A stretch of 46,915 nt of DNA, taken from positions 1 to 46,915 of IMG/VR virus record IMGVR_UViG_3300030012_002121; one strand, given 5' to 3'. Positions 3,001 through 31,168 of this stretch are shown piece after piece. Position numbers and translations under genes: made by a program. Origin of the DNA: a virus. Position 1 is the stretch's first letter; each line of letters starts with the position of its first letter. The notes beneath the pieces are model-generated. The model had not been told where the DNA came from. It did no database searches and worked only from the letters and a program-made list of their open reading frames with translations.

Positions 3001-3467
3001 ATTGCAAGTGTGCTTGCTATGTTTGTATTTGAAGCTCCAGCTAAAGTTGTACTTGTAATAACATTAGTTCCAGATATAGAACCATTTATTACCAAAGCAG
3101 TTAAAGCACCAAGAGAAGTTATATTTGGTTGAGCAGCTGTTTGAAGAGTACCTGTTATAGATGTAGATGTGAAAGATGTAAATCCAGTTCCTACACCACT
3201 TGATATAGACATTGTACCGTCTGCGAATGTACCTGCTGTAAAAGTACCTGTACCTTGAACATTTGTAAAGTTTGTTGCTGGCTGAGCAAGTGCATCACTA
3301 CTAATAGCAAGTACTGCACCCAGACCAGTTGCACCACCTTGCACAATGTCTACAATACTTTGTATAGTAAAGTTTTTTGTTGGTTTACCATCACCGTTTA
3401 TATCTGTTCCTAAAACTAAATCATCAGCTGAAGGCGTTACGGTGGGATATGAATATATTATTGCCAT
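1..3467 (-). CDS. Large tail-fibre/adhesin-like protein, 3' end beyond the window
   Basis: The minus frame is open from an ATG at 3467 to the left edge, giving 1155 residues without a stop. It is rich in Gly, Thr, Ser, Ala and Asn and has low complexity, as in marine phage fibres. The first ~45 residues (MAIIYSYPTVTP..., ending FTIQSIVDIVQ) resemble the start of the upstream gene and probably dock the protein on the tail. Near the visible C-terminal end (about residues 930-1110) are repeated N-x-x-IG / V-x-IG-x-x-A units, the pattern of the YadA-type trimeric adhesin head, then a Gly-rich stretch (HGGGGGG). It starts 1 nt after the stop of the preceding gene, so the two are co-transcribed. 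Function as a receptor-binding fibre is inferred from composition, repeats and position. A chaperone or peptidase domain could lie past the edge. Confidence 0.75.
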   Translation of the reverse strand, partial: MAIIYSYPTVTPSADDLVLGTDINGDGKPTKNFTIQSIVDIVQGGATGLGAVLAISSDALAQPATNFTNVQGTGTFTAGTFADGTMSISSGVGTGFTSFTSTSITGTLQTAAQPNITSLGALTALVINGSISGTNVITSTTLAGASNTNIASTLAIKTYVDSNPSGAESLAATLLIGNTTSGTDIAVSAADDITLTDTSKVILGTGGDTEITHDGTDFKITNTDGDIELTNTPAAGSIKLTTSATATKVELNGVAGVELDFNSTKKFEVLTGGAKTTGDFEATGSGTFVNLLNSGTYQDSSGDVGNAGQLLSSTGTGTNWVTEAPLYTWIIEADSGTGSPYTVASGDTIDFVGIGNISTAWDNATKELRISSSNPDGSGAANQVTYWSDADTITGASGFTFAGGATGKVAIGGELEVGGVLTDGTFTGSSGTYTGYVSITSAAFVGPLTGNASTATALATAGTIQLDAGSGATQGVGSNAVTYTSGGDITLTTTLADTTVTAKALTNLPTPTSSAITASDTILAAMAKLQGQITSTTGLAYEGTWDPGNNANAGGTPDLRLAGNKVNGHFYICSAAGIGTPNGNGTTPNSWAIGDWVIYVANGSATDEWQKLDQSNEVLGSGTANKIAKWTATNTLGTGLISDDGTTVTIGTNGNLTVQGDTILGDDAATDTVTLNGPTTFESTGRFKKGLALGTAVDGSEYGDGTKVLTSSGASGTAPTWETPTTGVVTSITGNYGITVAGTAAVPTIAVTSDVNNLINQATTKATPVGADSILINDSEDSNALKNASLTSIKTFTAESWLLDVDGGTAATISDGDQVGFNSGAGIVQTLSTKDVSTALRYDDSDNSGTIKNFIEAATTATPTSSDLLIFGDQAGGSAINSVKKATIANFPFLPAVTGTQYTLPMFATTSTLDDSIISQNAGATEATISGNLNITGIYKKGGSQIALNDLSNASTLHNSVFLGNIPAGLDVTGGSDCIIIGYRAGNALTSGDGNVLIGKDAGLAVTTGGDNIFIGAEAGVANTNGSNVGIGSKALEASTSSTNNVAIGNQVAINLTTGDKNIYIGPLVVAGAVDAEKEIVIGYQTTGNGSNTITLGASSSTVFYGGQNGINIGSAVKPWGDLYVDNGFFDGNITVDGHIIHGGGGGGTAKGGTF

Positions 3468-4116: not shown

Positions 4117-4265
4117 ATTTTTTTTTATTTATATTCTGTCTACAAGGTAAACATGTGAATTTAGGTTATTTCTCTAGTGGACTTTTGTTGAAGCGCACTA
4201 TGATTAGTAATATTACACGTTTTTGATAAGGTTTACTCTTATATATAAAGCTATATTTTAGGAGT

Positions 4266-4310
4266 GTGACAATAGCCTGTTACTATTATACCTTTAATAG
4301 CTAATGTCAC
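4266..4310. promoter_or_regulatory. Long imperfect inverted repeat, copy A
   Basis: The left arm GTGACAATAGC and right arm GCTAATGTCAC are complementary except for one A-A mismatch (11-nt arms). A ~23-nt centre contains GTTACTATTAT. The same arms recur at 11120-11165, where the centre carries the reverse complement ATAATAGTAAC. Right after the right arm comes TATTTTTTG, so as RNA it could also act as a weak terminator. An operator for a phage regulator or an RNA hairpin are both possible. Confidence 0.6.
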
Positions 4311-4392
4311 TATTTTTTGTTGTGTATATAGAAGTATGGTGTTGCCACTATCCCCTGCACTCCGCCGCTATTAACCAAAATGACTTTGATTC

Positions 4393-4415
4393 ACAAGGCC
4401 TCCCCTTGTTTTTTT
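4393..4415 (+). terminator. Rho-independent terminator in the divergent region
   Basis: Stem ACAAGG/CCTTGT with loop CCTCC is followed directly by a T run (4409-4415). It points right, yet no gene precedes it on this strand. It therefore suggests a short transcript starting in 4117-4390 or an attenuator ahead of the early genes. Confidence 0.65.
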
Positions 4416-4498
4416 ACGTTTACCTGAAAGTTTTTAGGTTTTTCCTGTATTTCCCCAGACTATTCATGTTTTTCTAATTATAAACTAACTTTATATTA

Positions 4499-4531
4499 TT
4501 ACAAAGTAAATACGAAGTGATTTGGATAATA
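4499..4531 (+). promoter_or_regulatory. Phage promoter-like element, copy 1
   Basis: TTACAAAGTAAATACGA, then exactly 8 nt, then GGATAATA. It is the most upstream of six copies and lies about 95 nt before the first rightward gene (4627). The bipartite form with fixed spacing suggests a promoter. Which polymerase or sigma factor reads it is unknown. Confidence 0.75.
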
Positions 4532-4626
4532 TAAATGTAAGTAATTAAGTAATAATACTTATACATATTGAGATAGTGTGGTAAACCACTCAACTCATTT
4601 AACTAAATAAATAAATATACACTCTT

Positions 4627-4770
4627 ATGAATTACATATTAGAAACTTCAATAACAAATATCACTGAACAAATTAAAATAGAATTTCCATACGATAACAC
4701 TATGTGTAAAGATAAATATAAAGAAAGTGTACAAGATTATTTGTATGAAGTAATAACAAGTAATTTATAA
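4627..4770 (+). CDS. Small hypothetical protein (47 aa)
   Basis: ATG at 4627 after an AT-rich leader (AACTAAATAAATAAATATAC...). The product starts MNYILETSITNITEQIKIEF and ends YEVITSNL. It is acidic to neutral with no recognised domain. The stop at 4768-4770 is followed directly by promoter-like copy 2, which fits the compact layout here. Coding status rests on position, leader and codon use; no homology is recognised. Confidence 0.6.
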   Translation: MNYILETSITNITEQIKIEFPYDNTMCKDKYKESVQDYLYEVITSNL

Positions 4771-4772
4771 TA

Positions 4773-4805
4773 TTACAAACTAAATACGACTAAACTTGGA
4801 TAATA
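4773..4805 (+). promoter_or_regulatory. Phage promoter-like element, copy 2
   Basis: TTACAAACTAAATACGA, 8 nt, GGATAATA. It lies 33 nt upstream of the ATG at 4839 and just after the stop of the preceding gene. Confidence 0.75.
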
Positions 4806-4838
4806 TAATAAAGAAAACTAATAATAAATATTAATAAC

Positions 4839-5066
4839 ATGAGTAAAATAACATCAAAAAGATTTGTAATCAGAAAATCACTAATTGGAAAAAATGTAGT
4901 AATTGAATTTACTAACAAAAAAGGTATCACATACACTTATAATCACGACAAAGCGTTCAACATTATGAAAAGTAACTTAGAAAAAATGAATTGTTTTCAA
5001 AAGTACAAAAGTTATACCGCTACAAATAATATCCCAGTAGTGTTAAGAAATGTAGAATTAGTGTAA
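4839..5066 (+). CDS. Hypothetical protein (75 aa), basic
   Basis: 75 residues, Lys-rich, starting MSKITSKRFVIRKSLIGKNV. The N-terminal half looks like a short beta-hairpin (VVIEFTNKKGITYTYNH) followed by a helix. No domain recognised. It is driven by promoter-like copy 2 through an AT-rich leader ending AATATTAATAAC. Downstream to 5125 I see only non-coding sequence leading into the tRNA-like element. Confidence 0.7.
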   Translation: MSKITSKRFVIRKSLIGKNVVIEFTNKKGITYTYNHDKAFNIMKSNLEKMNCFQKYKSYTATNNIPVVLRNVELV

Positions 5067-5125
5067 CAACTAACTACACTGTGAGTTCCACTTGTTTCTA
5101 ACAGTATAAATTGCGAACAAGTACA

Positions 5126-5166
5126 AGACATAATGGTTAATGTGAGTTCGATTCTCACCATGTCTA
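5126..5166 (+). ncRNA. Minimal tRNA-like element: acceptor stem plus T arm
   Basis: AGACAT (5126-5131) pairs with ATGTCT (5160-5165). The 3' side carries a textbook T arm, GTGAG-TTCGATT-CTCAC (about 5142-5158), and A5166 sits at the discriminator position. Only ~10 nt (AATGGTTAAT, like a D loop) lie where the D and anticodon arms should be, so it is not a normal tRNA. It is followed by CTAAC, as are the true tRNAs here, and lies 20 nt before the ATG of the next gene. An upstream hairpin ACTTGTT/AACAAGT (5090-5122) could be part of the same RNA. It may be a tRNA remnant or an RNA-processing signal. Confidence 0.6.
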
Positions 5167-5186
5167 CTAACTATAAATAATTAAAT

Positions 5187-5294
5187 ATGAATAATAATAG
5201 AAACTTGAGTGACTTACAAAAGTCAAATGTAATCTTAACTTTAATAACAATAGTACTAATCTCTTACTATTTCGTAACTGTAATATCAATATGA
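5187..5294 (+). CDS. Small membrane protein (35 aa)
   Basis: ATG at 5187 follows an A/T leader that begins at the 3' end of the tRNA-like element. The product has a short polar N-terminus (MNNNRNLSDLQKS) and one hydrophobic segment to the end (NVILTLITIVLISYYFVTVIS), i.e. a single-pass membrane peptide. Its TGA overlaps the next ATG (ATGA, 5291-5294), a sign of coupled translation that supports it being real. Function unknown. Confidence 0.65.
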   Translation: MNNNRNLSDLQKSNVILTLITIVLISYYFVTVISI

Positions 5295-5551
5295 AATACA
5301 GAAATGTAAAATATAGTTATCATGAGTGGAAAACATTCGATGGTAAATTAGCAACAGGTTATCACTGTGAAGACAAAGCTTTACTAAAAGGTCTTAACAC
5401 GGTGTCATTTGGAACTAAAACTATCAATGAAATGCAAGAAACTATTGATGACTATGTTGATAACAGACAAGAACACCTTGACAATCAACAGCAATATGAC
5501 TTAGCTGAACAAGAATTTATGAATAAATACGGAACTTTAAACGCAGATTAA
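5291..5551 (+). CDS. Hypothetical protein (86 aa)
   Basis: Starts inside the ATGA overlap with the membrane peptide. N-terminal half: Tyr/His-containing segment KYSYHEWKTFDGKLATGYHC. C-terminal half: acidic, probably helical (TINEMQETIDDYVDNRQEHL...). It looks like a small soluble accessory protein. No known family is recognised with confidence. Confidence 0.7.
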   Translation: MKYRNVKYSYHEWKTFDGKLATGYHCEDKALLKGLNTVSFGTKTINEMQETIDDYVDNRQEHLDNQQQYDLAEQEFMNKYGTLNAD

Positions 5552-5553
5552 CT

Positions 5554-5976
5554 ATGAATAACAAATACACTTGGCAACAAGAAAATCAAATGCTAGAGGA
5601 TTCTTTCGCAAGAAGACTATTAATAGAGCATAATATCAAAGAAGTAACTACACAAAAACAAGCAATAAATGGTACAAGAGAGTTTGAATTCCCTGTACCA
5701 TCAAGAAAAACTTGGCCAAATGGCAAAAGATTAAGACTAGCTTGCTTTAAAACAGGTTATGTAAGAAACCAAAACTCTTGCTCATCTAACTATCAAATAA
5801 ATCCAGTGTACAAATCAGAAAGTAGACAAATGTTTCTAACAGATGATGGTATACTTAAAACATATATTTATAATGGTTATAATAGAGTAAAAATATGGAA
5901 TGGTCTTGCTAGAATGAAATTTATGTTAGACTTTTACTTAAGAAATTACAAACTAAATACGAATAATAAAGGATAA
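5554..5976 (+). CDS. Hypothetical protein (140 aa)
   Basis: Begins 2 nt after the previous stop. Basic, 140 residues, with a central segment FEFPVPSRKTWPNGKRLRLACFKTGYVRNQNSC holding two Cys, and a Tyr-rich second half (TYIYNGYNRVKIWNGLARMKF). No recognised domain. The last codons (NYKLNTNNKG) are encoded by promoter-like copy 3, so the 3' end of this gene and the promoter of the next share the same bases. Confidence 0.75.
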   Translation: MNNKYTWQQENQMLEDSFARRLLIEHNIKEVTTQKQAINGTREFEFPVPSRKTWPNGKRLRLACFKTGYVRNQNSCSSNYQINPVYKSESRQMFLTDDGILKTYIYNGYNRVKIWNGLARMKFMLDFYLRNYKLNTNNKG

Positions 5977-5978
5977 TA
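5946..5978 (+). promoter_or_regulatory. Phage promoter-like element, copy 3
   Basis: TTACAAACTAAATACGA, 8 nt (ATAATAAA), GGATAATA. It lies inside the 3' end of the 5554-5976 gene. The GGATAATA block ends 7 nt before the ATG at 5986, so if it is a -10 region the transcript would be nearly leaderless. Confidence 0.75.
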
Positions 5979-5985
5979 ATTATAT

Positions 5986-6132
5986 ATGAAAAAAATTAAA
6001 TTCAATCAAGAAACTGGCAATGCTATTATCGAAACAGATAATGGTTACAAAGTACTAAATAGACTAAATCAAAACGTAGAATACACCGACTATATCAACT
6101 GGTATACAATAAACGATAGAATCTATGTGTAA
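5986..6132 (+). CDS. Small hypothetical protein (48 aa)
   Basis: ATG just downstream of promoter-like copy 3. The product (MKKIKFNQETGNAIIETDNG..., ending YTINDRIYV) reads as a small all-beta fold with regular alternation of hydrophobic residues. Its stop overlaps the start of the next gene by 8 nt if that gene begins at 6125. Confidence 0.65.
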   Translation: MKKIKFNQETGNAIIETDNGYKVLNRLNQNVEYTDYINWYTINDRIYV

Positions 6133-6370
6133 AAATATGCGAGAATTACTACAATATGTAGAAAATAAACGAAAAAAGCGGGCTTTTCAACACTTTAAGC
6201 TCGCTAAAATCGAAGGTGAATGTGGTAGTTTCACTGATAAAGAGTATAAACAAGTAAAAACTTATCAAAAATCTAACTATAGTAAGTGTAAAAAGCATGT
6301 TTATACGAGTTACTGGCGTGAATATACACAAAAATATGACGTAAAACAATTAAAATTAATAAAATTATGA
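6125..6370 (+). CDS. Hypothetical basic protein (81 aa)
   Basis: Strongly basic, rich in Lys, Tyr and Cys (MRELLQYVENKRKKRAFQHF..., then KHVYTSYWREYTQKYDVKQL). The first ATG (6125) overlaps the upstream gene; the in-frame ATG at 6137 (MRELLQ) is an equally good start. A nucleic-acid-binding role would fit the charge but is not shown. The antisense ORF over the same bases is a shadow. Confidence 0.65.
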   Translation: MCKNMRELLQYVENKRKKRAFQHFKLAKIEGECGSFTDKEYKQVKTYQKSNYSKCKKHVYTSYWREYTQKYDVKQLKLIKL

Positions 6371-6576
6371 GTAAAATGAAAATTATAGATGAAATAGCAG
6401 ACGCACAATCATCTTATATTAAAGAAACATTGTACGATTCTGTACAGTGGGCCATTGACGGATCAGATTTAGATCACGACAAGCTAAATGGTGATGAATA
6501 TAATCAACTAATGCACATGATTATGTGTGCTACAATAGAAAAATTGCATACAGAATTAGATGATCACGAAGAATAA
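6367..6576 (+). CDS. Hypothetical acidic protein (69 aa)
   Basis: Overlaps the previous stop by 4 nt (ATGA). Acidic and probably all-helical: KIIDEIADAQSSYIKETLYD, then a DLDHDKLNGDEYNQLMHMIM segment. No recognised family. It overlaps the next small gene by 17 nt. Confidence 0.7.
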   Translation: MSKMKIIDEIADAQSSYIKETLYDSVQWAIDGSDLDHDKLNGDEYNQLMHMIMCATIEKLHTELDDHEE

Positions 6577-6697
6577 AAGAAGACATAAGCACGTTAAACT
6601 ACTTAAAATAACTAAGCAAGAAGCTGAACGTATAGAAATTGAGTGGTTTAAAAGATACAATTTACAAACTAAATACGAACATAACTGGATAATATAG
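6560..6697 (+). CDS. Small basic protein (45 aa)
   Basis: Starts MITKNKRRHKHVKLLKITKQ; 45 residues, highly basic N-terminus, helical middle (EAERIEIEWFKRY). The last ~12 codons (NLQTKYEHNWII) are encoded by promoter-like copy 4. The overlap at both ends and correct spacing to 6700 support it, but coding status is only likely. Confidence 0.55.
   Translation: MITKNKRRHKHVKLLKITKQEAERIEIEWFKRYNLQTKYEHNWII
6662..6694 (+). promoter_or_regulatory. Phage promoter-like element, copy 4
   Basis: TTACAAACTAAATACGA, 8 nt (ACATAACT), GGATAATA. It lies in the 3' end of the 6560-6697 ORF and 5 nt before the ATG at 6700. Confidence 0.75.
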
Positions 6698-6699
6698 TT

Positions 6700-6888
6700 A
6701 TGAAATGTAAATGTAACAACAAAATACCGGCAGGCAGACTAGCACTAGGTTATTCAACCTGTGTAAACTGTAGCGAAACAAAGCAATATAGTTATATACC
6801 TATTATTGCAAACAAACAAGTACTAGAAGTACAAATAGTAAGTCAAGAACTAAGTGACAGAGTTCATAAATCTTGGCGTAGAAAGTAA
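6700..6888 (+). CDS. Small zinc-ribbon protein, DksA/TraR-like C4 finger
   Basis: 62 residues. Residues 3-24 read C-x-C-x(15)-C-x2-C with IPAGRL between the pairs (KCKCNNKIPAGRL...STCVNC). This recalls the DksA/TraR zinc finger (C..C...IP..RL......C..C), with a shortened first pair (CKC). The C-terminal half (residues 30-62) is a short beta/helical tail. DksA/TraR proteins bind in the RNA polymerase secondary channel, but this one lacks the long coiled coil, so that role cannot be assumed. It sits directly behind promoter-like copy 4 and ahead of the RNA cluster. Confidence 0.6.
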   Translation: MKCKCNNKIPAGRLALGYSTCVNCSETKQYSYIPIIANKQVLEVQIVSQELSDRVHKSWRRK

Positions 6889-6894
6889 ATTAAG

Positions 6895-6971
6895 TAGCAG
6901 GACGAGTAGCTTAACTAGGTAAAGCAGGGCCTGATAAATCATCAGCTTTACACATAAGTGAATTGCCTGCT
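6895..6971 (+). ncRNA. Cloverleaf-like RNA without canonical T loop
   Basis: TAGCAGG (6895-6901) pairs perfectly with CCTGCTA near 6966-6972. Inside are a D-arm look-alike (GCTT-AACTAGGTA-AAGC), a hairpin CTGAT-AAATC-ATCAG, and a weak arm TTTAC/GTGAA. The general plan is a cloverleaf, but there is no TTCGA loop and position 33 of the middle loop is not T. It may be a degenerate tRNA or a different structured RNA. It lies 6 nt after the zinc-ribbon gene. Confidence 0.45.
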
Positions 6972-6976
6972 ACAAT

Positions 6977-7056
6977 GGACGTGAAGTAGGGTAGACAAGA
7001 AATAGGAGGCGAAAGCCACACTAACTTGGACGCAGGTTCGATTCCTGCCACGTCCA
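6977..7056 (+). ncRNA. tRNA-like RNA with acceptor and T arm but no clear anticodon arm
   Basis: GGACGTG (6977-6983) pairs with CACGTCC (7049-7055), with A7056 as discriminator. The T arm GCAGG-TTCGATT-CCTGC (7032-7048) is perfect. The 48-nt interior gives no standard D or anticodon arm. It can form a rod: AAGT/ACTT at its base and a GGC-GAAA-GCC tetraloop hairpin. The 3' part (TTGGACGCAGGTTCGATTCC) resembles the tRNA-like end of tmRNA, but the 5' signature and a tag frame are absent. CTA follows the discriminator, as in the real tRNAs nearby. Confidence 0.6.
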
Positions 7057-7059
7057 CTA

Positions 7060-7155
7060 GGGAGTGATAAGGTAAGTAAAGCATGCATGTGTGTCCTTAT
7101 GGAAAACGTAAGTGTATTGCAGCTTTAAACGGCGGTTCGACTCCGCCCACTTCCA
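7060..7155 (+). ncRNA. Second tRNA-like RNA with a rod in place of the anticodon arm
   Basis: GGGAGTG (7060-7066) pairs with CACTTCC (7148-7154, one G-T pair), with A7155 as discriminator. The T arm GGCGG-TTCGACT-CCGCC (7131-7147) is perfect. Between them AAAGC-A-TGCA (7078-7087) pairs with TGCA-GCTTT (7118-7126), making a long arm instead of D and anticodon arms. It begins 3 nt after the previous tRNA-like RNA, so the two form a tandem pair. CTAA follows the 3' end. Confidence 0.6.
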
Positions 7156-7162
7156 CTAAATA

Positions 7163-7223
7163 AGAGGCATTCATGCACCTGATATTGCAATGTTAAAGGT
7201 ACAAAGCAGATGTAAGTCCTCTA
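7163..7223 (+). other. Possible degenerate tRNA-like segment
   Basis: AGAGG (7163-7167) and CCTCT (7218-7222) can close a ~60-nt element just after the second tRNA-like RNA and just before tRNA-Met. There is no T loop and no clear anticodon. Reported because it fills the gap in the RNA cluster; the structure is weak. Confidence 0.25.
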
Positions 7224-7228
7224 AATAT

Positions 7229-7301
7229 AGCGCTGTAGAGCAGTGGCCAGCTCGCAAGGCTCATAACCTTGAGGTCGTCGGTTCGAATCCGGCCAGCGCA
7301 A
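7229..7301 (+). tRNA. tRNA-Met (CAT)
   Basis: 73-nt cloverleaf. The acceptor has six pairs (GCGCTG/CAGCGC) plus an A1-A72 mismatch. D arm GAGC-AGTGGCCA-GCTC; anticodon arm CAAGG-CTCATAA-CCTTG with anticodon CAT; T arm GTCGG-TTCGAAT-CCGGC; discriminator A7301; CCA not encoded. The anticodon stem lacks the three G-C pairs of initiators, so it is an elongator Met tRNA or a lysidine-type Ile tRNA. The 3' end is followed by CTAAC and then, after 20 nt in total, the ATG of the next gene. Confidence 0.9.
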
Positions 7302-7321
7302 CTAACATTAAATAATTAAAT

Positions 7322-7549
7322 ATGGCAAATATGAGTTATTGCAGGTTTGAAAATACTGCAAGAGATTTAGCAGACTGTGTTGAAGCTTTGCAAAACAATG
7401 ACTTAAATGAATACATGAGTGTTCATGAAGTTAATGGTTTAGCGGAATTACAACTATTAGCAATGGATATTGTAGCAATGCAAGATCACATTGGTGATAT
7501 AATAGACAAAGAAAGACAAAGATTTGAAGCACACGAACTTACAAACTAA
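7322..7549 (+). CDS. Conserved small phage protein (75 aa)
   Basis: Starts MANMSYCRFENTARDLADCV, a sequence style I recognise from many phage and flavobacterial small proteins of unknown function. The rest is acidic and helical (ALQNNDLNEYMSVHEVNGLA...). The leader is the 20 nt directly after tRNA-Met, nearly identical to the leader at 5167-5186. The stop TAA lies inside promoter-like copy 5 (acaaacTAAatacga). Function unknown. Confidence 0.75.
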   Translation: MANMSYCRFENTARDLADCVEALQNNDLNEYMSVHEVNGLAELQLLAMDIVAMQDHIGDIIDKERQRFEAHELTN

Positions 7550-7571
7550 ATACGACTTAATACGGATAATA
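7539..7571 (+). promoter_or_regulatory. Phage promoter-like element, copy 5
   Basis: TTACAAACTAAATACGA, 8 nt (CTTAATAC), GGATAATA. It contains the stop codon of the upstream gene and ends 5 nt before the ATG at 7577. Confidence 0.75.
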
Positions 7572-7576
7572 AAAAT

Positions 7577-7810
7577 ATGAGAATTAAAACAATTTATGAC
7601 AGGCTAAAACCAGGTTTTAAGTCGTCACTACAAAAAAATGCTAGACAATATTCTAGCGCTAAAAGACTTAAGTACACTCTTATGTCTAAAACTTCATGGC
7701 ATGACTTAACTGTTAGTAATTTAAATGATATGGCGGTATATTGTAATATACCAACTTACAAATTATCCGCTACAGATTTTATGTATGGAGACTATATAAT
7801 TAATAAATAA
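7577..7810 (+). CDS. Hypothetical basic protein (77 aa)
   Basis: 77 residues starting MRIKTIYDRLKPGFKSSLQK. Two predicted helices (SSLQKNARQYSSAKRLKYTL; SNLNDMAVYCNI) and a Tyr-rich end. The layout could suit a small DNA-binding protein, but no family is recognised. First gene after promoter-like copy 5; 1 nt separates it from the next gene. Confidence 0.7.
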   Translation: MRIKTIYDRLKPGFKSSLQKNARQYSSAKRLKYTLMSKTSWHDLTVSNLNDMAVYCNIPTYKLSATDFMYGDYIINK

Positions 7811-7811
7811 T

Positions 7812-8066
7812 ATGGAAAAAGATATAAAAAATAGAGCACACGATAAAGCTTTTGCTACTATACATGGTTTAGATAATGACATTAGCAGGTTAAAGCAAGA
7901 AATAAAAGATGATCAAACTCTTTTTATTACAAAAGAACAGCTTATAGGTGTGTTAGATCACACTAAAAGACAAAGAGAAGTTTGGAATTATATAGCTTCT
8001 TTAATAGAAAAAGATCATGAAAGAATAGATTACTTAGATTATGAAAAACAAAATGAAATTACCTAA
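7812..8066 (+). CDS. Hypothetical helical protein (84 aa)
   Basis: Acidic, Lys/Glu/Asp-rich, predicted coiled-coil-like helices (DNDISRLKQEIKDDQTLFIT; TKRQREVWNYIASLIEKDHE). No domain recognised. Its 3' end overlaps the next gene by 26 nt in another frame if the ATG at 8041 is used. Confidence 0.7.
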   Translation: MEKDIKNRAHDKAFATIHGLDNDISRLKQEIKDDQTLFITKEQLIGVLDHTKRQREVWNYIASLIEKDHERIDYLDYEKQNEIT

Positions 8067-8271
8067 ATGGTTTAATGGTACTATATATGAGAAAGGTGAT
8101 AAAGTAACAAATCCTTTTTCAGGAGATACTTATGAATTAAACAACTTAGAATTAAGTATGTATGACTTAATTATGGGTTCTCAAATGGTACAAAAATATG
8201 ATTTAACAAGAAAAGGTTTAGATTGGTTTAGAAAAGCTAACCCTAAAGCCTATATGGTATTACTTGATTAA
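8041..8271 (+). CDS. Conserved phage hypothetical protein (76 aa)
   Basis: Contains PKWFNGTIYEKGDKVTNPFS and ELNNLELSMYDLIMG, a pattern I have seen in small proteins of marine phages without known role. Starts are possible at 8041 (MKNKMKLPKW) or 8053 (MKLPKW); the second removes half of the overlap with the upstream gene. The stop is 6 nt before tRNA-Gln. Confidence 0.7.
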   Translation: MKNKMKLPKWFNGTIYEKGDKVTNPFSGDTYELNNLELSMYDLIMGSQMVQKYDLTRKGLDWFRKANPKAYMVLLD

Positions 8272-8277
8272 TCACAA

Positions 8278-8350
8278 TGACTCGTGGTGTAATTGGTAAC
8301 ACGTCTGGTTTTGGTCCAGAAGAGTTCAGGTTCGAGACCTGACGAGTCAA
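8278..8350 (+). tRNA. tRNA-Gln (TTG)
   Basis: 73-nt perfect cloverleaf: acceptor TGACTCG/CGAGTCA, D arm GTGT-AATTGGTA-ACAC, anticodon arm TCTGG-TTTTGGT-CCAGA with anticodon TTG, variable loop AGAGT, T arm TCAGG-TTCGAGA-CCTGA, discriminator A8350, no encoded CCA. CTAAT follows and the next ATG is 19 nt downstream. Its product could supply the phage's many CAA codons. Confidence 0.95.
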
Positions 8351-8369
8351 CTAATTTTAAATTAATAAT

Positions 8370-8837
8370 ATGGCAACTAGAAATATGACGCTTGTAGTCG
8401 ATAGATCACACGCGGAAGAATTTGACAAAGGCTTTGCTGTTAAACCTCAATTGGTTAGCGATAAAGCTTATGTCCATATGTACATGCATCACGATGGTTA
8501 TCCTGAGTGGAGAGGTGTAGAACTTGCTAATTGGATTCAACACATGCAAAATGATAGAGGTTTTACGCATTTTGGTGATGGATCAAGAATAGCATCACAT
8601 TTAGTACATGATTTTCACTACAACGGTCAGTATTTATACCCAAACGTTGATAGTGTTGATCATGAATACACTTGGATTATATGGACAGGTAAACCTGATG
8701 TATGGTTAAGTGCTTATAATCAGTACACTAACACTTGTAAATTTGTTGGTGGTGCACGAAAACTAATCGACAAATATAAGCAAAAAAATATGGGTTACAC
8801 TGATTGGAACGAAAAATACAAAGTAAATACGATATAA
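8370..8837 (+). CDS. Conserved phage hypothetical protein (155 aa)
   Basis: 155 residues, rich in His, Trp and Tyr. A central motif YMHHDGYPEWRGVELANWI recalls a group of phage proteins of unknown function that carry a (Q/H)xDGYP motif. Residues 60-130 look like an alpha/beta domain (YLYPNVDSVDHEYTWIIWTG). The leader starts at the 3' end of tRNA-Gln. The last codons (YKVNTI) are encoded by promoter-like copy 6. No catalytic role can be assigned. Confidence 0.75.
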   Translation: MATRNMTLVVDRSHAEEFDKGFAVKPQLVSDKAYVHMYMHHDGYPEWRGVELANWIQHMQNDRGFTHFGDGSRIASHLVHDFHYNGQYLYPNVDSVDHEYTWIIWTGKPDVWLSAYNQYTNTCKFVGGARKLIDKYKQKNMGYTDWNEKYKVNTI

Positions 8838-8848
8838 AATGGATAATA
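8817..8848 (+). promoter_or_regulatory. Phage promoter-like element, copy 6
   Basis: TACAAAGTAAATACGA (first T of the consensus missing), 8 nt (TATAAAAT), GGATAATA. It holds the stop of the 8370 gene and is the last copy before the long replication operon, so it may drive 8863 to 22489. Confidence 0.7.
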
Positions 8849-8862
8849 ATATAAAACAACCA

Positions 8863-11165: not shown

Positions 11166-11797
11166 ATGATAGAAACATAAAATGGTTGAATGATAGACGC
11201 GTGGTGTATAGACGCGAACCTATTAATGATAAACCAACTATCGATACAGATCAGTACAAATACTATGAAAATGGTACGTATGAAGCTTTTCATTTGTTTA
11301 ATAGTAAAGCTAAGATAACTACATACAAATCATTGAAATGGCACATGTTAGCTTTATATCATTTAAATAAAGATAGTAAATATAGTTTAAGTCCTTTCTT
11401 AGAGCATTTAGCTAGATTTATAGCTAATAAAGAAAATGGATTTGTAACATTTTTTATAAGTGAAAAAGTACTGAAAGATATGATAACTGATGTGTACAAA
11501 AGAGATAGTGAAGATATACCGAAAAATAGGTTACGTAAAGTAATATTTAAACCTAATTGTGGTTTATCATTAAGTGAAAAACTTAAAGTAGTAGGTAGTT
11601 TGATTGGAAGATCAAGTAAAATATATGAAGAAGATATTTACGATGTAATGCTTGATTTGAACGATCAAGGTAAAAAAATAACAATAAACCGTATAGCGGA
11701 TTTATTAGAATGTTCTACAAGAACTATACATAGAAATATGTCTCAACAATTAAAAAAAGAAAAAGTAATTTTAAATAAAGAAAATGAAAAAATATAA
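11159..11797 (+). CDS. Putative HTH regulator or replication initiator-like protein
   Basis: 212 residues, basic. The C-terminal third (about 160-205: IYDVMLDLNDQGKKITINRI, ADLLECSTRTIHRNM) is a helix-turn-helix, with ITINRIADLLECSTRTIHR as the recognition unit. The N-terminal part is helical (FLEHLARFIANKENGFVTFF). The start codon lies in inverted repeat B, and the same repeat occurs in the divergent region. That suggests it binds both sites as an autoregulated switch protein; this is inference. A role in replication start is the main alternative. It overlaps the sigma-factor gene by 14 nt. Confidence 0.6.
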   Translation: MSHDRNIKWLNDRRVVYRREPINDKPTIDTDQYKYYENGTYEAFHLFNSKAKITTYKSLKWHMLALYHLNKDSKYSLSPFLEHLARFIANKENGFVTFFISEKVLKDMITDVYKRDSEDIPKNRLRKVIFKPNCGLSLSEKLKVVGSLIGRSSKIYEEDIYDVMLDLNDQGKKITINRIADLLECSTRTIHRNMSQQLKKEKVILNKENEKI

Positions 11798-12551
11798 TAT
11801 ACCTAATTATATCCGTTATAAAAATGATTTATTAGTGCAATTAAAAAAGATAGAAGATAAGCCTATTGAAAGTTTAAACGAAGAACAATTGCAATGGAAA
11901 TTTATGCTTTTAGTAGAAAATATAGCTAGAAAATTTTCAACAACTCAACAGGCTTCTGGTGTTATGAGCATAAATGATCTTATACAAGAAGGTAATTTTA
12001 GTTTAACTAAAGCTATAAGAAAAATTGATTGGATAAGACTTAGTGAATCAGAAGATCAAGAGAAAACATTAAAATCTTTTTTATCTAAACGTATTAAAGG
12101 TGGTATAAGACGAGCTGTTGATATAAACAGAGGTGACATGCGTATACCAGAACATAAATTAAATGAAATACGTAAGAATAATGGTAAAGATAAAAAGATG
12201 GTGGCGATGTTTTTTAATAGTATGTTTTTATCAATTGATGATAAACCAAAGAATGCTGACGAAGAAGAATCTATGATTTATCAAATAGCAGATAAATCAG
12301 AGCCTTATAATATAGGTATTTTAAATATTTATTTAACTAGTTTATTAAAAACTCATTTAAATGAAAAAGAATATAATGTGTTAAGATTAAGCTATGGTTT
12401 AGACTGTGAAAAGCATTCAGCAAACAAAATAGCAGAGATCTTAAACATCGAGGGAAGCAGTGCTTATGTACGTGTTTCAGAGCTTAAAAAACAAGCTGTA
12501 GATAAACTAATTGATAATGTTGATCACTCGCAAGTGCTTGACTATCTGTAG
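11784..12551 (+). CDS. Phage-encoded sigma-70 family factor
   Basis: 255 residues. Region 2: residues ~43-112, with INDLIQEGNFSLTKAIRKID matching the sigma-70 DLIQEG-x-x-GL-x-x-A signature, then FLSKRIKGGIRRAV. Start of region 3: MRIPEHKLNEI (~119-129), like the RIP-x-H of housekeeping factors. Region 4: residues ~190-245, LNEKEYNVLRLSYGLDCEKH followed by an HTH (SANKIAEILNIEGSSAYVRV). Region 1.1 is absent. It should direct host RNA polymerase to phage promoters, either the six-copy element upstream or the late genes. It overlaps the HTH gene, so the two regulators are made together. Confidence 0.85.
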   Translation: MKKYNIPNYIRYKNDLLVQLKKIEDKPIESLNEEQLQWKFMLLVENIARKFSTTQQASGVMSINDLIQEGNFSLTKAIRKIDWIRLSESEDQEKTLKSFLSKRIKGGIRRAVDINRGDMRIPEHKLNEIRKNNGKDKKMVAMFFNSMFLSIDDKPKNADEEESMIYQIADKSEPYNIGILNIYLTSLLKTHLNEKEYNVLRLSYGLDCEKHSANKIAEILNIEGSSAYVRVSELKKQAVDKLIDNVDHSQVLDYL

Positions 12552-24364: not shown

Positions 24365-27300
24365 TTAAAATTTTGGTAGAGCTATTTTTGGTATGTTAAT
24401 TTTAGGCGTTTTAAAAAATGATTTAGTTTTTCCTTTTTTTGGTTTATCTTTTGTCCATTCAAGCTCCCACTTTTGCCAACCAAGTGCGTTAGCAACTCTC
24501 ATCCACTCTTCATTTTCAGCATCAGAAGCATCCTTTAAGTTGGTTAGTTTTCTTATACCTCTATCAAGTGGTATATTAGTAGCAGCACTAATCACCTGTC
24601 CACTAGCAAGCCAAGCTGGATTATCTAGTGACCAACCTTTTTCTCTTATTTCTTTTTTATTCCAATCCCATGTTCTACCAGCAGATTTTAATTTACCTAT
24701 TTTAGAAGATATGGGAGGTGAAATATCTAACATTTCAATAGCAGCATCTTGAGCTTCCTTACCTTCAGCAAGTTTCATTATAGCGTTTTTAAGAGTAGAA
24801 ACTGCAGCTCCATGAAAACCAACTCCTCTTAATAGCGAGTCAGCCATACCGTTTACAATACTAGTATATTTTTTATTTTTCTTTTCTTCATCTGGTTCTT
24901 CATCAGCAAATGCCATAGCAAATAAAGCTTGTTGTAAGGCGTTAAACATTACATTTTGTATGAAACCATAATATAATATCTTAGATATATTAGTTTTATC
25001 ATCTCCTCGGCGATTCTTAAGATCGCTAGCGGCTTTTTGCATTAATCTTGCATACTGTGCTGGGGTGTTTGCAAAAGCTAATATAATACGTCCCATTGGA
25101 CCCGCTTGTTGAGCACTAATTCTATCAGGTCTACTTGATTGTTGGTTTTCTTCTGCTATTTCTCTAAAATCTTGGAATGCTTGAGCCTCAGCTTCTTTGT
25201 CTGACAAACCTTCTTTCTTTAAACTTTTGTATCTATTTCTATAAAATGTAGCACCACCTGAAGCAATAGCAAAACTATCTGCTATTTGTGTAGGTAAAAA
25301 ACCTAACTTTAATATTTTACTAACAAAAGCTTTAGCTTTATTTTTAGATTCAGCAGCGATCTCAGCAATATCAGCTTCACTAACATTTATTTTTAAACCA
25401 TTACGTCTTTCAACTAGGTAATCAGAGTTCATAAGTTTAATTACATCACTCCAATATTGTGGTTGATTACCAAATGCAGCCGCTGCTTTTAATGGATTAT
25501 TATCAGACCAGTTCACAAAGTTAACAGCCGATATAGTTTGTAACACAGCAGACCTCATGTTAAAGAACATAATAGCTCCAACAGAATTATTTATCCAATC
25601 AATAAATCTACCGGTTAATGTATCACCTTTAAAACCTCTATTGCTACCAGTTTTCATACGGCCAAGCATGTTTTCTAAAGCATCTCTATAACCTTTACCA
25701 TAAGCCGCTTCAAGCTTATTCATATTAGTTTCGTTAAACACTTCATCAACATTGTTTTGCCATTGTTTTAAATACTTAGCTCTAACAACAGTATTTAAAC
25801 CTGATAATAAATCAGTTGTAATAGTACCAGCTAACCAACCTTCAGTAGGTTTAGGATAGCCATTGTCTTTGTTTATAGCTATAAGTTCATTAGCAAATAA
25901 TTGTAAATTTTCATCTGCAGTAACATAATCTTCTAATATTTTTTGATCAGTCTTAGACAAGCCTGGTATACTCATACCTTGTTGTCCCCATGTATATACT
26001 CTAATAGCATTACCTACAGTATAAGGTTCACCAGTTATTTTTTTATTTAAATCTTTAGGACTAACGCCTAATAACTTTTTTAAAGCTTTGAAGTCATTAG
26101 CTAAAGCAACCCTAGCGTTTGATATGTCTATATTAGCTCTAGCAAATGGATCTAAAAAGTTTTCTTTTACCCAAGCTATTGTTTTATCACCTTGTTTACC
26201 TTTACCAGCAAAATATCTAGTTAAACCAACAAAATCTTGTGCTGATGGTGGTATACCTAGTAAATCAAACTTACCTTTATCAGCACCTACAGCTCTCGCT
26301 TTGGTTCTACCATATTGTTTTTCTTTACCAATACCCGTAGCTCTTTCAATTATTTCATTAAAATCTTTATTAAGATCTTTTGATTTACTAAATTTAATTC
26401 TAGCATCTGAAGCCTCTTTATCAAGTTTTTCCATTTCACCTAAAACTTGATCATTAGTTGTATTTTTATCAAACTTTTTGTCTATAACAGGTGGTAATAT
26501 TTTTTCATTATAAACTTTAGCTTTACTAAAAGCTTTTTCAGCCGCAACCCATTTTTCACCAATAACTTTTCCATTATCCTTAGGATCTATACTTTTTATA
26601 GCAACTACACCTGGAGCTCCAAAGGTTTTTATATTATAATATCTTTTATAAGAAGGATCACCATCAAAATAGTTAACAGGCATAACATCTGTTAATTTCA
26701 TTTTTTCTAAAACTTGATCCATACTTTTAGGAATAACAGCAACTGTATATTGTTCAAACAATTTATCTACATTAGAATTTCTAACAGAACCTTTAGTGTT
26801 CATGTAAAAATCTAGTAATTTTAAAAGAACATAGTTTGTAGGTATCATATGTTCGTATCTAAGATCTTTAACATTTACTCTTTTACCTTCATATATATAT
26901 TTTAAATTAGCAGCTCTTTTAATAGGACCCTGCATATTGCTTTTCATAGACGCCATAAGCATCGCTAAATCTTCTTTAGTATATATAGATTTTTTATCTA
27001 AAACTTTATCAACCATAAAACTCATCATTAAGTCTATAGATTTTCTAGCTTCTTTAGCTTGTTTTTTTCTACCAGCAAAATTTTTATCTTGTATTGCAGA
27101 CTTAGATGTTTCACTAAAAAGATTAAAATCTACAATAACACCTCCAATATTTTGTTTATTTTTAACTTGACCAGAAGCTGTCAGTTGGATGTTTTCTAAA
27201 CCTTTAATCTGCTTAATAACATTGTTAACAAAATCATTGACATTGGAAAATGATTGATACCTTGGTGTTCCAATATTTTTTTCGTTTCCTTTAATAACAT

Positions 27301-30300
27301 TACCTTGTTTATCTACAATAATTCCTCCATTACCTATTTTACTACTTGTGGCATACATACCTTTGTAATAAGATACAAATAACTTAGCAACTTCAGCGGG
27401 TTTCATTCCCGTATTTATTAAATGATTACCTAATTCTTTAGCAAACAATCTTTGTTTAATAATATTATCTACATTATTAAATAAAGTAGTCATTTTTACG
27501 CTACCTAATTCTAATAATTTTATAATATTAGTATTTGTTTCAGCGGCTTTAGTTTCATTAAACAAAAACTCATCTAAACTTTGTTCTGGTAATGTATCTA
27601 AATTTTTATAATTTTCTTTAACTTCGGAGTATTGCTTAATGTATTTTTGTAAGTCTTGAGAAACCTCACTTAATTTAGGAAAATCCTTTCCAAGAATAGG
27701 TGATACAATGCTTTTTATTTCTTTCCAAGAGTTTTTATCTTTAAAATTAACATTACTAGCTTCAATAGCTTTTGCTATTTCTGGTAGTTTTTGATAAAAA
27801 TCTTGTTTGTATGAAAGATCTAGTTTAGCTATTTTACTAAATTTTAAATCAATAGGTCTTTTAATTGCTTCAGAAACTTTTTTAGTAGTTTGTGTTTTAT
27901 CTACAAACTCTCTTTTTTCTATAACCTCTGGTTTTTGTATAGTTTCCATTGTAGCATCAAAAGCAAACTCTTCTGCTAACGCTTCTGCTAACGCATCTTT
28001 TCTAGTACCTTTAGTCGATGTACCCACATCTCTACCTAAAAAGTAATTAATAAATTCAGCTTTAGTAATATCTTTTTTCTTAAATATCTTTTTACCTTCT
28101 TTAGTTTTTTCTCTTTTACCAGTGTCTTCTGCAAACGGTCTAAATCTTTTATTTATAATATCTTGAGGTATAGCTTCGTAAATATTTTCAAAGTTATCTC
28201 TTAAAAAAGTTTCGTAAGCAGCTCTTGATCCTAAAACATCTTTAGCTATGGTAGTTTTAAGTTCTGTTCTAAATGCTTTTTGTAAAGCTTTTTTAAACTG
28301 AGGTGAGTCTACAGGTGGTAGTTTAGTACCAAATGTTTTTACTACAGCATCAACTACCTTTTGCGTGGTAGCTTTATCTAACTTAATTTTCTTTCTTAAA
28401 CTTTCTTTTGCTTTAGTAGGTTTTTCTAAAACAGTTTCTGTAACCTTTTCTGTTGTTGTATCTGTAACACCTCTAGCCTCTGTTACATCTAACTTAAATT
28501 CAGTATCTAAAACTCTGTTAGAAGCTTCTATAGCTCTTGCTGGTAAAAACTTATTTATATAAGCGGCTAATGGCACGCCTTTACTAGCATCATATTCATT
28601 TATTAAATCTATAATACCTCGCTTACCAGTCTCTATTTCATCAGTCAATAATTGTCTATCAAAACCAGGAGCTTCACTTCTTCTTTGTACAATTCTATTT
28701 GTAATAGGTTTAAACTTTTCTATTATTTCAAATGCACCTTCTTTACCTTTTTGTTCAAATATAGCTTGAACAGCATCAGAATCAGATTTAGATTCTTTTA
28801 TAATAGTTTCAATTTCCTGTTCTTGTTGCTTAGGCGTAACTAATTTACCTTCAACTCCTCTAGCCGCAGCTTTAACTTGAGCTAAACTTAAATCTCCTTT
28901 CGCAATACTAGCGTTATAATCTTTTACAAAGTTATATACATCTCTACCATTGTTAAATTTAATGTTAACACCTAATTTTTGTAAAGATCTTCTTATAACA
29001 TCACCCATTTTAGTGAATACGTTTTCGCTGAATTTAATATCACCTGTAGCTATAGCATCAGAAAATAAAGTTAAAGCCTCTTCCATTTGAACTTCTTTGC
29101 TTTGATCAGCATATTGTTCCATTCGTTTTTTAAACTTACTATCTTTTATTTTGCTTGCATCTATTTTATTTAACTCGTTTAACAATGCATTACCTAAGTT
29201 TATAGAAGTTTCAGGACTATCTTTAACCGTTTTATATAGTATAGCATGTAAAAACTCGTGAGCGGCAACGTTAACAGCTTTTTCTTGTTTAGCAACTTCT
29301 TTATTAATAACTATAGTTTGTTCTCCAGTATTAGGATTTTGAACTATAAAACCCTGTTGTTCAGAAGCTTTAGTAGTGTCTTGATCAGGGTTTTGTTGTT
29401 TAACAAAGTCTTCAACTTCTTTTGTTGTTTCAAAATCTTTAACTTGAACTCCTTTTATTTCTGTAGCTTTTTCTTTTATTGTTTCAGTTGATTGAGTTAT
29501 TTTTTCAGCTGTGTTTCTTATATCGTAACTATCTTGCTTAGCTTTTTCTATTTCCTTATTTAAACTTTTAATTATAATGTTTTTATTCTCTTGGGTATAT
29601 TTATCTGAATTTATAACGCTTTGAATTTCTTTTTGTGAATTTTCAATTGTATTTAAGTTTAAATTAATTTGATTTATTTCACTTTCATTTAAAACATTTA
29701 CTAATTCTTGGTTTTTATTATAACCAACCATTAAATCAGCTCGCAACTCATTTTGAGCTTTGTTTATTCTACCTATATCTTCTGGTGTTAAGTTTTTTCT
29801 ATATTTACTAATTTCTAAATCAGCAATTTCGTTTATTGTATTTTGTATGTTTTCATTTTCTGTAGATGTTCTTAAACCTACCGCTGCTTTTAAATTTCTA
29901 CCCGAAGTTGTAACTACAGCAGAACCAAAAGCACCTTTTAATAAAGCTTCTAATCCGACAGGACTGAACATTGTGTTAAACGCTTTTTTTCCTGCTTCTA
30001 AAACACTTTTATCTTTCCCTAACTCTGTGTTAAAAGTTTCTATACCGAGCTGTGCAAATTCTGTTCCACCTTCAAACGTACTAGCTAACAACCATTGGTA
30101 AAATTGTTTTTTACTACCATAAGACATGGCATTAATATACTTCATTTGCCTATTTAAACCAATTTTTTCTAAAGCAAACCCAAATGTTCCTAATGCTGCA
30201 GGAATAGCAACTTCAGCTTCACCTTGATCAATAAGCTCAGCACTATTTAAACCTAATCTTTGTGCTTTTTCAGAATTATAATCTTGTACCGATCTAGTTA

Positions 30301-31168
30301 TCATTTCTGCACCTAAACCTATACCTAAAGTAGGAGCTGAAATAAGTAGAGATGAAACTACATTTGCAGCACCGTCTATTACAGCGGCGGCGCCATACGT
30401 TAATTTTTTAACACCTTTTTTTTCTCCTAAACCAGTAAATTCAGCAACAGGAGCAGCGTATGAATTAACTCTTTCTATTTCTGCTTCAGCCTCGCCTAAT
30501 TTAGTATCCCAATAATCTTTATCATAATCAGACGCATATATATCATAACCATTAGTTTGTTTACCTAACCAAGCCCAAGCCCATTTCATGGTATCATCAA
30601 AAGTTGTTAATCTTCCTAGTTGATTACCTAAAGTATTTGTAACAAGTTCTAATTCACTTAACTCTTTTTCTCCTAAAGCAACTTCTTCTGCTTCTTTTAC
30701 CCTTTTTTCTCTTGCTTCTATTTCACTTTTAGAAATTCTTTTAGTTTCTTCAAAAGCTGTTGTTTCAGTTAATTCACCTTCATCTCTACCGGCTAATTCA
30801 GGTTGTATTCCTTTTTCTAATAAAAATGTATTTATAAAATCTCTAGCTACTTGGTTTTCGTTTTCTCTTTCTAACTTTATTTCTTCTTCAGCTGTTTTAG
30901 CAGCTTCAGGGCTTTCAAAAGGAACAAAACTTGTATCAGGTTCTGGAATTTCACTTGGACCTACTAAATCCGATAAACCAGGATCCGAAGGTAATGCCAT
31001 ATCGGATGCTATCTCTTCTCCTGCAACCGCATCCGGAACTACAGGTGTTGTCTTTACTAGTTCTTGTGACTCTATAATAACAGCGTTAGGAAACTGCATT
31101 TTAAAATCTTCAACCCTTGTTTCATGAACCTCAACAATAGATCCATCTTGTTTTTTAAATCTTACCAT
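24365..31168 (-). CDS. Giant internal virion protein with metallopeptidase motif and sigma-like segment
   Basis: 2267 residues, the largest gene here. Acidic N-terminal ~150 residues; hydrophobic segments at ~255-300 (AAAVIDGAANVVSSLLISAP); long coiled coil at ~440-570. Residues ~625-700 look like a zincin: H637-E-F-L-H641 in NVAAHEFLHAIL with a candidate third ligand E696/697 (MEEALTLF). Residues ~815-895 resemble sigma region 2 (GIIDLINEYDASKGVPLAAY, INKFLPARAIEASNR). The C-terminal 700 residues resemble large polyvalent phage proteins. It is probably packed in the head and ejected into the cell with the DNA; the enzyme activity is inference. Confidence 0.7.
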   Translation of the reverse strand: MVRFKKQDGSIVEVHETRVEDFKMQFPNAVIIESQELVKTTPVVPDAVAGEEIASDMALPSDPGLSDLVGPSEIPEPDTSFVPFESPEAAKTAEEEIKLERENENQVARDFINTFLLEKGIQPELAGRDEGELTETTAFEETKRISKSEIEAREKRVKEAEEVALGEKELSELELVTNTLGNQLGRLTTFDDTMKWAWAWLGKQTNGYDIYASDYDKDYWDTKLGEAEAEIERVNSYAAPVAEFTGLGEKKGVKKLTYGAAAVIDGAANVVSSLLISAPTLGIGLGAEMITRSVQDYNSEKAQRLGLNSAELIDQGEAEVAIPAALGTFGFALEKIGLNRQMKYINAMSYGSKKQFYQWLLASTFEGGTEFAQLGIETFNTELGKDKSVLEAGKKAFNTMFSPVGLEALLKGAFGSAVVTTSGRNLKAAVGLRTSTENENIQNTINEIADLEISKYRKNLTPEDIGRINKAQNELRADLMVGYNKNQELVNVLNESEINQINLNLNTIENSQKEIQSVINSDKYTQENKNIIIKSLNKEIEKAKQDSYDIRNTAEKITQSTETIKEKATEIKGVQVKDFETTKEVEDFVKQQNPDQDTTKASEQQGFIVQNPNTGEQTIVINKEVAKQEKAVNVAAHEFLHAILYKTVKDSPETSINLGNALLNELNKIDASKIKDSKFKKRMEQYADQSKEVQMEEALTLFSDAIATGDIKFSENVFTKMGDVIRRSLQKLGVNIKFNNGRDVYNFVKDYNASIAKGDLSLAQVKAAARGVEGKLVTPKQQEQEIETIIKESKSDSDAVQAIFEQKGKEGAFEIIEKFKPITNRIVQRRSEAPGFDRQLLTDEIETGKRGIIDLINEYDASKGVPLAAYINKFLPARAIEASNRVLDTEFKLDVTEARGVTDTTTEKVTETVLEKPTKAKESLRKKIKLDKATTQKVVDAVVKTFGTKLPPVDSPQFKKALQKAFRTELKTTIAKDVLGSRAAYETFLRDNFENIYEAIPQDIINKRFRPFAEDTGKREKTKEGKKIFKKKDITKAEFINYFLGRDVGTSTKGTRKDALAEALAEEFAFDATMETIQKPEVIEKREFVDKTQTTKKVSEAIKRPIDLKFSKIAKLDLSYKQDFYQKLPEIAKAIEASNVNFKDKNSWKEIKSIVSPILGKDFPKLSEVSQDLQKYIKQYSEVKENYKNLDTLPEQSLDEFLFNETKAAETNTNIIKLLELGSVKMTTLFNNVDNIIKQRLFAKELGNHLINTGMKPAEVAKLFVSYYKGMYATSSKIGNGGIIVDKQGNVIKGNEKNIGTPRYQSFSNVNDFVNNVIKQIKGLENIQLTASGQVKNKQNIGGVIVDFNLFSETSKSAIQDKNFAGRKKQAKEARKSIDLMMSFMVDKVLDKKSIYTKEDLAMLMASMKSNMQGPIKRAANLKYIYEGKRVNVKDLRYEHMIPTNYVLLKLLDFYMNTKGSVRNSNVDKLFEQYTVAVIPKSMDQVLEKMKLTDVMPVNYFDGDPSYKRYYNIKTFGAPGVVAIKSIDPKDNGKVIGEKWVAAEKAFSKAKVYNEKILPPVIDKKFDKNTTNDQVLGEMEKLDKEASDARIKFSKSKDLNKDFNEIIERATGIGKEKQYGRTKARAVGADKGKFDLLGIPPSAQDFVGLTRYFAGKGKQGDKTIAWVKENFLDPFARANIDISNARVALANDFKALKKLLGVSPKDLNKKITGEPYTVGNAIRVYTWGQQGMSIPGLSKTDQKILEDYVTADENLQLFANELIAINKDNGYPKPTEGWLAGTITTDLLSGLNTVVRAKYLKQWQNNVDEVFNETNMNKLEAAYGKGYRDALENMLGRMKTGSNRGFKGDTLTGRFIDWINNSVGAIMFFNMRSAVLQTISAVNFVNWSDNNPLKAAAAFGNQPQYWSDVIKLMNSDYLVERRNGLKINVSEADIAEIAAESKNKAKAFVSKILKLGFLPTQIADSFAIASGGATFYRNRYKSLKKEGLSDKEAEAQAFQDFREIAEENQQSSRPDRISAQQAGPMGRIILAFANTPAQYARLMQKAASDLKNRRGDDKTNISKILYYGFIQNVMFNALQQALFAMAFADEEPDEEKKNKKYTSIVNGMADSLLRGVGFHGAAVSTLKNAIMKLAEGKEAQDAAIEMLDISPPISSKIGKLKSAGRTWDWNKKEIREKGWSLDNPAWLASGQVISAATNIPLDRGIRKLTNLKDASDAENEEWMRVANALGWQKWELEWTKDKPKKGKTKSFFKTPKINIPKIALPKF

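Follow-up and report, generated by a model that had tools for sequence, protein, structure and literature searches.

A two-part element recurs six times ahead of small rightward genes in a 46,915-bp virus record (hereafter the window, meaning the whole stretch of DNA that was analysed), and the question raised by this locus is what the element does and which polymerase reads it. The nearest named structural relatives of the window are Maribacter phage Panino, the Flavobacterium 'elemo' phages and Cellulophaga phages; its early genes run rightward from ~4.5 kb and its structural genes leftward, with all six elements confined to the small-gene portion of the early unit. The initial annotation took these elements for a phage promoter family, and the sequence comparisons presented here support that reading: the six are very probably transcription start sites in front of early genes. 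All six of the copies that it listed were recovered (Table 1), the last starting at 8816 with A replacing the first T, against 0 expected in 100 shuffles. It had also found no copy elsewhere in the window, and indeed no seventh appears there at ≤3 mismatches, while a weighted scan of the window added one weak site only (34644, minus strand), which lies in a structural gene, has GGAAAATA as its -10 and is probably accidental.

Table 1. Predicted promoter copies and associated features of the window.
Feature	Position	Strand	Remarks
Promoter copy 1 (predicted)	4499..4537	+	TTACAAAGTAAATACGA at 4499-4515, 9-nt gap, GATAATAT at 4525-4532; predicted start G4537, long leader
Promoter copy 2 (predicted)	4773..4811	+	Predicted start A4811; ORF 4839-5066 downstream
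Promoter copy 3 (predicted)	5946..5984	+	ORF 5554-5976 ends within it; predicted start A5984; ATG at 5986
Promoter copy 4 (predicted)	6662..6700	+	Predicted start A6700, first base of the ATG that opens ORF 6700-6888; predicted leaderless
Promoter copy 5 (predicted)	7539..7577	+	Overlaps stop of ORF 7322-7549; predicted start A7577, first base of the ATG that opens ORF 7577-7810; predicted leaderless
Promoter copy 6 (predicted)	8816..8854	+	First T replaced by A; overlaps end of ORF 8370-8837; predicted start A8854
Divergent region separating leftward late genes from rightward early genes	4117..4498	.	Conserved blocks in an alignment of four relatives
HTH protein, 212 aa	11159..11797	+	HTH_11 match at 6e-5, below cut-off; model pLDDT 86.6; possible partner
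Phage sigma factor, 255 aa	11784..12551	+	sigma2 and sigma4; RIKG(A/G)I in region 2.4; proposed promoter reader

The element is widespread beyond the window. Scanning viral contigs for AAATACGA-N8-GGATAATA gave at least 117 stretches. Among the matches listed, 111 encode proteins of the window's phage family; of the remaining six, four or more appear to be chance matches in which the rest of the motif is absent. In an independent set of 64 loci, each encoding a relative of the window's sigma gene, all 99 exact half-site pairs had a gap of 8 (to GGATAAT) when gaps of 0-19 were allowed, and 98 of the 99 lay on the sigma strand; a position-weight scan of the relatives found 279 sites in the forward direction, 6 on the other strand and 0 in the reversed control sequence. 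Where relatives could be scanned over their whole length (five, of 66-71 kb), the sites were confined to the early region. A divergent relative (L170) carries three copies in which the upstream block is altered (TCACCNATTAAATAATT), with the 9-nt gap and GATAATAT unchanged. A motif search over the genome and relatives was proposed in the initial annotation as a check; run over the window and related marine phage contigs, it shows the element recurring with fixed spacing, and almost exclusively on the strand of the early genes, in more than 110 stretches of those contigs. A literature search with the motif letters turned up no phage paper among the results listed, and by these comparisons the promoter family appears to be real, widespread and undescribed within the open literature searched.

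Re-estimating the matrix without requiring the exact core changed the anatomy of the element. The first G of GGATAATA proved to be free (A83 C44 G122 T17) and the next G present in 266 of 266 sites, with GATAATA invariant or nearly so and a following T common. Because that first G is not conserved, the gap is better given as 9 nt before GATAATAT, and the corrected core would read TACAAACTAAATACGA, 9 nt, GATAATAT; what stands of the fixed 8-nt gap first described is its strictly fixed length and the two-part site, while the number itself gives way to 9. The distance from CAAACT to GATAAT is 17 bp, which is the standard spacing for the sigma70 family. Accordingly, the earlier statement that the element matches no flavobacterial or sigma-70 promoter holds for its letters, which are unlike TAnnTTTG and are not those of sigma-70, but not for its architecture, which is sigma70-family-like. 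We propose that GATAATAT acts as the -10 box and CAAACT with its flanks as the -35 region at 17-bp spacing, with AAATACGA forming an additional conserved block directly downstream of the -35.

This arrangement also predicts where transcripts would begin. If the first G is numbered 0, position +13 holds a purine in 98% of the 184 non-redundant sites that were picked without reference to downstream letters; G makes up 39% at +13, against 2-8% at most other nearby positions, and is never found at +12. Reading GATAAT as -12 to -7 therefore places the predicted +1 at the +13 purine, that is, 7 nt past the last T of GATAAT at a near-invariant purine, and all six predicted starts in the window are purines (Table 1). 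The start had been expected 5-9 nt after GGATAATA, and the +13 purine, as the sixth base after it, falls in that range. Among relatives, 49 of 277 sites have the ATG of an ORF of at least 40 codons exactly at +13, compared with 8, 1, 6 and 14 at +11, +12, +14 and +15. These counts support leaderless mRNAs for a subset of sites; the median element-to-ATG distance is 29 nt. In the window the distances from GGATAATA to the ATG in copies 3-5 are 7, 5 and 5 nt, as first reported, and in copies 4 and 5 the predicted start would be the A of the ATG itself, which supports the suggestion of near-leaderless messages. One gene start may need correction: the ORF called from 8839 probably begins at its next in-frame ATG, since 8839 lies upstream of the predicted transcript start at 8854. 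Where the ATG is distant, 44 of 204 sites carry ATGTAA after the -10 box, at positions +11 to +16; by the start-site model the ATG of this hexamer would not be a start codon, and its G would be +1.

The overlap of the element with upstream genes does not reflect coding. As the initial annotation observed, the stops or last codons of upstream ORFs fall inside copies 3, 5 and 6 (Table 1), and across the relatives 106 of 286 sites overlap an upstream ORF. These ORFs occupy all three frames (45, 44 and 17), on which grounds a coding explanation was rejected and the constraint assigned to the DNA. Seventy-five of the 106 end on the element's own TAA triplets, so that the stop-codon overlap is a by-product of the TAA lying inside the element.

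A candidate reader is encoded downstream. The product of 11784-12551 matches phrog_351 (1.9e-15) and has PDB profile matches to SigA and to the sigma28 factor FliA; the predicted fold of its region 2 can be superposed on sigma domain 2 (Z 12.5, 98 residues, 2.2 A), and it aligns with FliA across regions 2 to 4, sharing RIKGAI of region 2.4 with Aquifex FliA. Among the matches listed, 21 of 21 motif-bearing contigs of at least 60 kb encode the sigma factor, with a sigma28-like RIKGAI in region 2.4. The gene is present in 28 of 35 such contigs of at least 48 kb. Seven motif contigs lack it: six of these are 49-59 kb long with genes of the family and are probably fragments, and the seventh (L029) is a chance match. 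Two named outgroup relatives, MW202828 and Panino, have neither sigma nor motif. (GroEL and GroES are annotated in MW202828 and GroES in Panino, and GroEL- and GroES-like genes are recognizable by sequence at L189 5608-7408 in the relative G001, in a part of the genome that is missing from the window.) Between phages, motif distance correlates with sigma distance at r 0.34-0.44, highest in whole-motif comparisons, with primase nearly as good (r 0.41) and the adjacent HTH (r 0.19-0.26), Erf and exonuclease genes all below sigma; motif variation may thus follow the sigma gene a little more closely than the genes around it, a modest effect. Single-residue covariation between sigma and motif was set aside, as the strong pairs look like clade effects and controls did about equally well, and the -10 box cannot covary because it hardly varies. 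In two relatives the sigma gene is interrupted, being split between frames in G050 and carrying in-frame stops in G032, through sequencing error, frameshift or decay.

The sigma28 resemblance extends, in part, to the DNA. The sigma28 consensus is TAAAGTTT-n11-GCCGATAA (PMC2859248), and the GATAA of our -10 stands in the same register as that of sigma28/FliA promoters, with CAAA near the position of TAAA. However, the element has CAAA-N19 rather than TAAA-N18 and is thus one bp longer, it has no GCC extension, the base before GATAA is free, and the AAATACGA block is added in the spacer; the sigma28-type skeleton TAAA-N18-GATAA with GCC before GATAA is accordingly absent from it, and the system is phage-encoded and almost phage-restricted. 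A phage sigma with RIKGAI and a sigma28-like -10 would nonetheless make a coherent, if inferential, match.

The reading that we favour, and consider probable, is that these are promoters for early/middle genes at which host core RNA polymerase works with the phage sigma factor of 11784-12551. From the sequence patterns we infer a loop in which host polymerase would first transcribe part of the early unit, presumably from the divergent region (Table 1), so that sigma is made; sigma would then steer core polymerase to the promoter repeats that lie ahead of its own gene and, in some relatives, would also serve promoters just downstream of it. With the sigma gene inside the same transcription unit, this loop would amplify early/middle expression after the host-driven round. 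A counterpoint is that the sigma gene lies downstream of the very promoters it would read. Scans of the divergent region for a host promoter (TTG-N17-23-TAnnTTTG and sigma70) gave nothing convincing. The region does hold a conserved inverted pair at 4260-4312 (GTGTGACA.TAGCCTGTTA ... AGCTAATGTCAC), possibly an operator or an origin, and a terminator-like hairpin with a T-run at 4393-4415, ahead of copy 1. Within the early unit, 6900-7059 (plus strand) resembles a tRNA with a large insert (RF00005, 37.5 bits). Its ends are also tmRNA-like (RF00023, 38.1 bits, below cut-off), and a message part would have hardly any room there; more tRNA-like ends occur near 7108-7155. A late promoter motif picked by eye, TRTGTRAYTAT, was dropped, being not clearly commoner than in reversed sequence.

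The conserved block containing AAATACGA is longer than a sigma factor would normally read and may leave space for another protein. The HTH gene and the start of the sigma gene share 14 nt in the window and in most relatives, and the HTH product, the natural candidate, might bind the long upstream block near -30 while phage or host sigma reads GATAATAT, as MotA does with sigma70. T4 middle promoters combine a MotA box centred at about -30 with a stringent sigma70 -10 (PMC2988021), and the present element resembles them on both counts: its -10 box is likewise stringent, and its own phage-specific block runs from about -38 to -22, is centred at -30 and is longer than the usual -35 box. The conserved overlap of the two genes and the altered upstream block of L170, with GATAATAT and spacing retained, also fit such a composite promoter. 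In contrast to T4 middle promoters, spacing in the window's element never varies and a phage sigma gene is present instead. Furthermore, motif distance tracks the HTH protein less well than sigma, with no link left once sigma is accounted for (partial r 0.01 to -0.12), and fold matches to the N-terminal portion of the HTH protein are weak (Z ~5), with no structural relatives among the matches listed. We regard a composite promoter of this kind as rather unlikely. A more elaborate proposal, in which three obligatory parts (a -35, an 8-bp spacer block and a sigma28-like GATAATAT -10) at fixed spacing would be read by sigma and a translationally coupled HTH partner, giving leaderless early transcription and, across a large group of ocean phages, re-targeting the RNA polymerase of Bacteroidota, is tentative at best, and we would sooner doubt it than accept it.

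Alternatively, the early promoters might be read by host polymerase with a host sigma or activator, so that no phage factor would be needed. The copies do stand ahead of the genes that open the early unit, a place where one would expect host-read promoters, and single perfect copies occur in two sequences without a sigma homologue, leaving room for a host-encoded reader. One, in a 1.39-Mb Flavobacteriales MAG contig (L213, 322-355), lies in a bacterial chromosome contig ~110 nt ahead of a 293-aa ORF and near parA/parB-like genes; that genome has no second perfect copy, and this one could be chance or could belong to a host gene responding to phage infection. The other, near 3107 (minus strand) of a 63,985-bp contig binned as Prochlorococcus (L212) that looks like an unrelated phage, stands 21 nt before a 132-aa ORF. 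Yet the element bears no likeness to TAnnTTTG, the flavobacterial promoter, and is missing from two related phages, one of which has a flavobacterial host. It also co-occurs with the phage sigma, and the flavobacterial genome that has a perfect copy has just one. A host-encoded reader is on balance improbable.

By eye the element also suggests promoters that start at GG and serve a T7-like or virion RNA polymerase encoded by the phage, as AATACGA followed by 8 nt and GG resembles the T7 promoter TAATACGA...GGG, and the early location would suit an injected polymerase. Nevertheless, 20 long relatives gave no PF00940 match in a search in which T7 itself was positive, the first G is dispensable (G in 122 of 266), the initiator-like purine places the inferred start 13 nt further on, and the giant virion proteins show no known polymerase motif; we rejected this reading as very improbable, although a polymerase too divergent in sequence to be recognised could have escaped these searches. 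A 2267-aa protein of the virion region (24365-31168, minus strand) has no confident family assignment and carries an HEFLH metalloprotease-like motif; a sigma-like stretch suspected in it by eye had no sigma match. Least probable of all, and hardly credible, is an RNA-level signal (a translation start context or processing site) or a non-promoter protein-binding repeat: the elements are always gene-oriented and often near ATGs, as are the start-associated sequences of cluster K mycobacteriophages, but they share no consensus RNA fold across sites, stand at some early genes only, and keep the +13 purine and box spacing fixed while the ATG distance varies, as befits a transcription start.

On the sigma-dependent reading, the closest known parallels are phages 7-11 (gp47) and phiEco32 (gp36), which likewise pair a sigma factor of their own with a repeated phage-specific promoter. 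The gp47 promoters of 7-11 are bipartite (GTAAtg-16-aCTA), with starts 6-9 bp away (PMC8948821). The window's family differs from these in its sequence, in having sites in the early region and not at late genes, in its longer conserved upstream block and in its frequent predicted leaderless starts. Phage sigma-dependent promoters are thus a kind already known, and our best reading by analogy is that this family would be new to it.

The family offers a testable transcription map, comprising predicted starts, a predicted reader and a predicted cascade, of a large set of marine flavobacterial phages that have yet to be cultured. The motif flags family members and their early regions in metagenomes and corrects gene starts, and the proposed pairing of promoter and sigma could be put to the test in Bacteroidota, a group with few known phage transcription systems.
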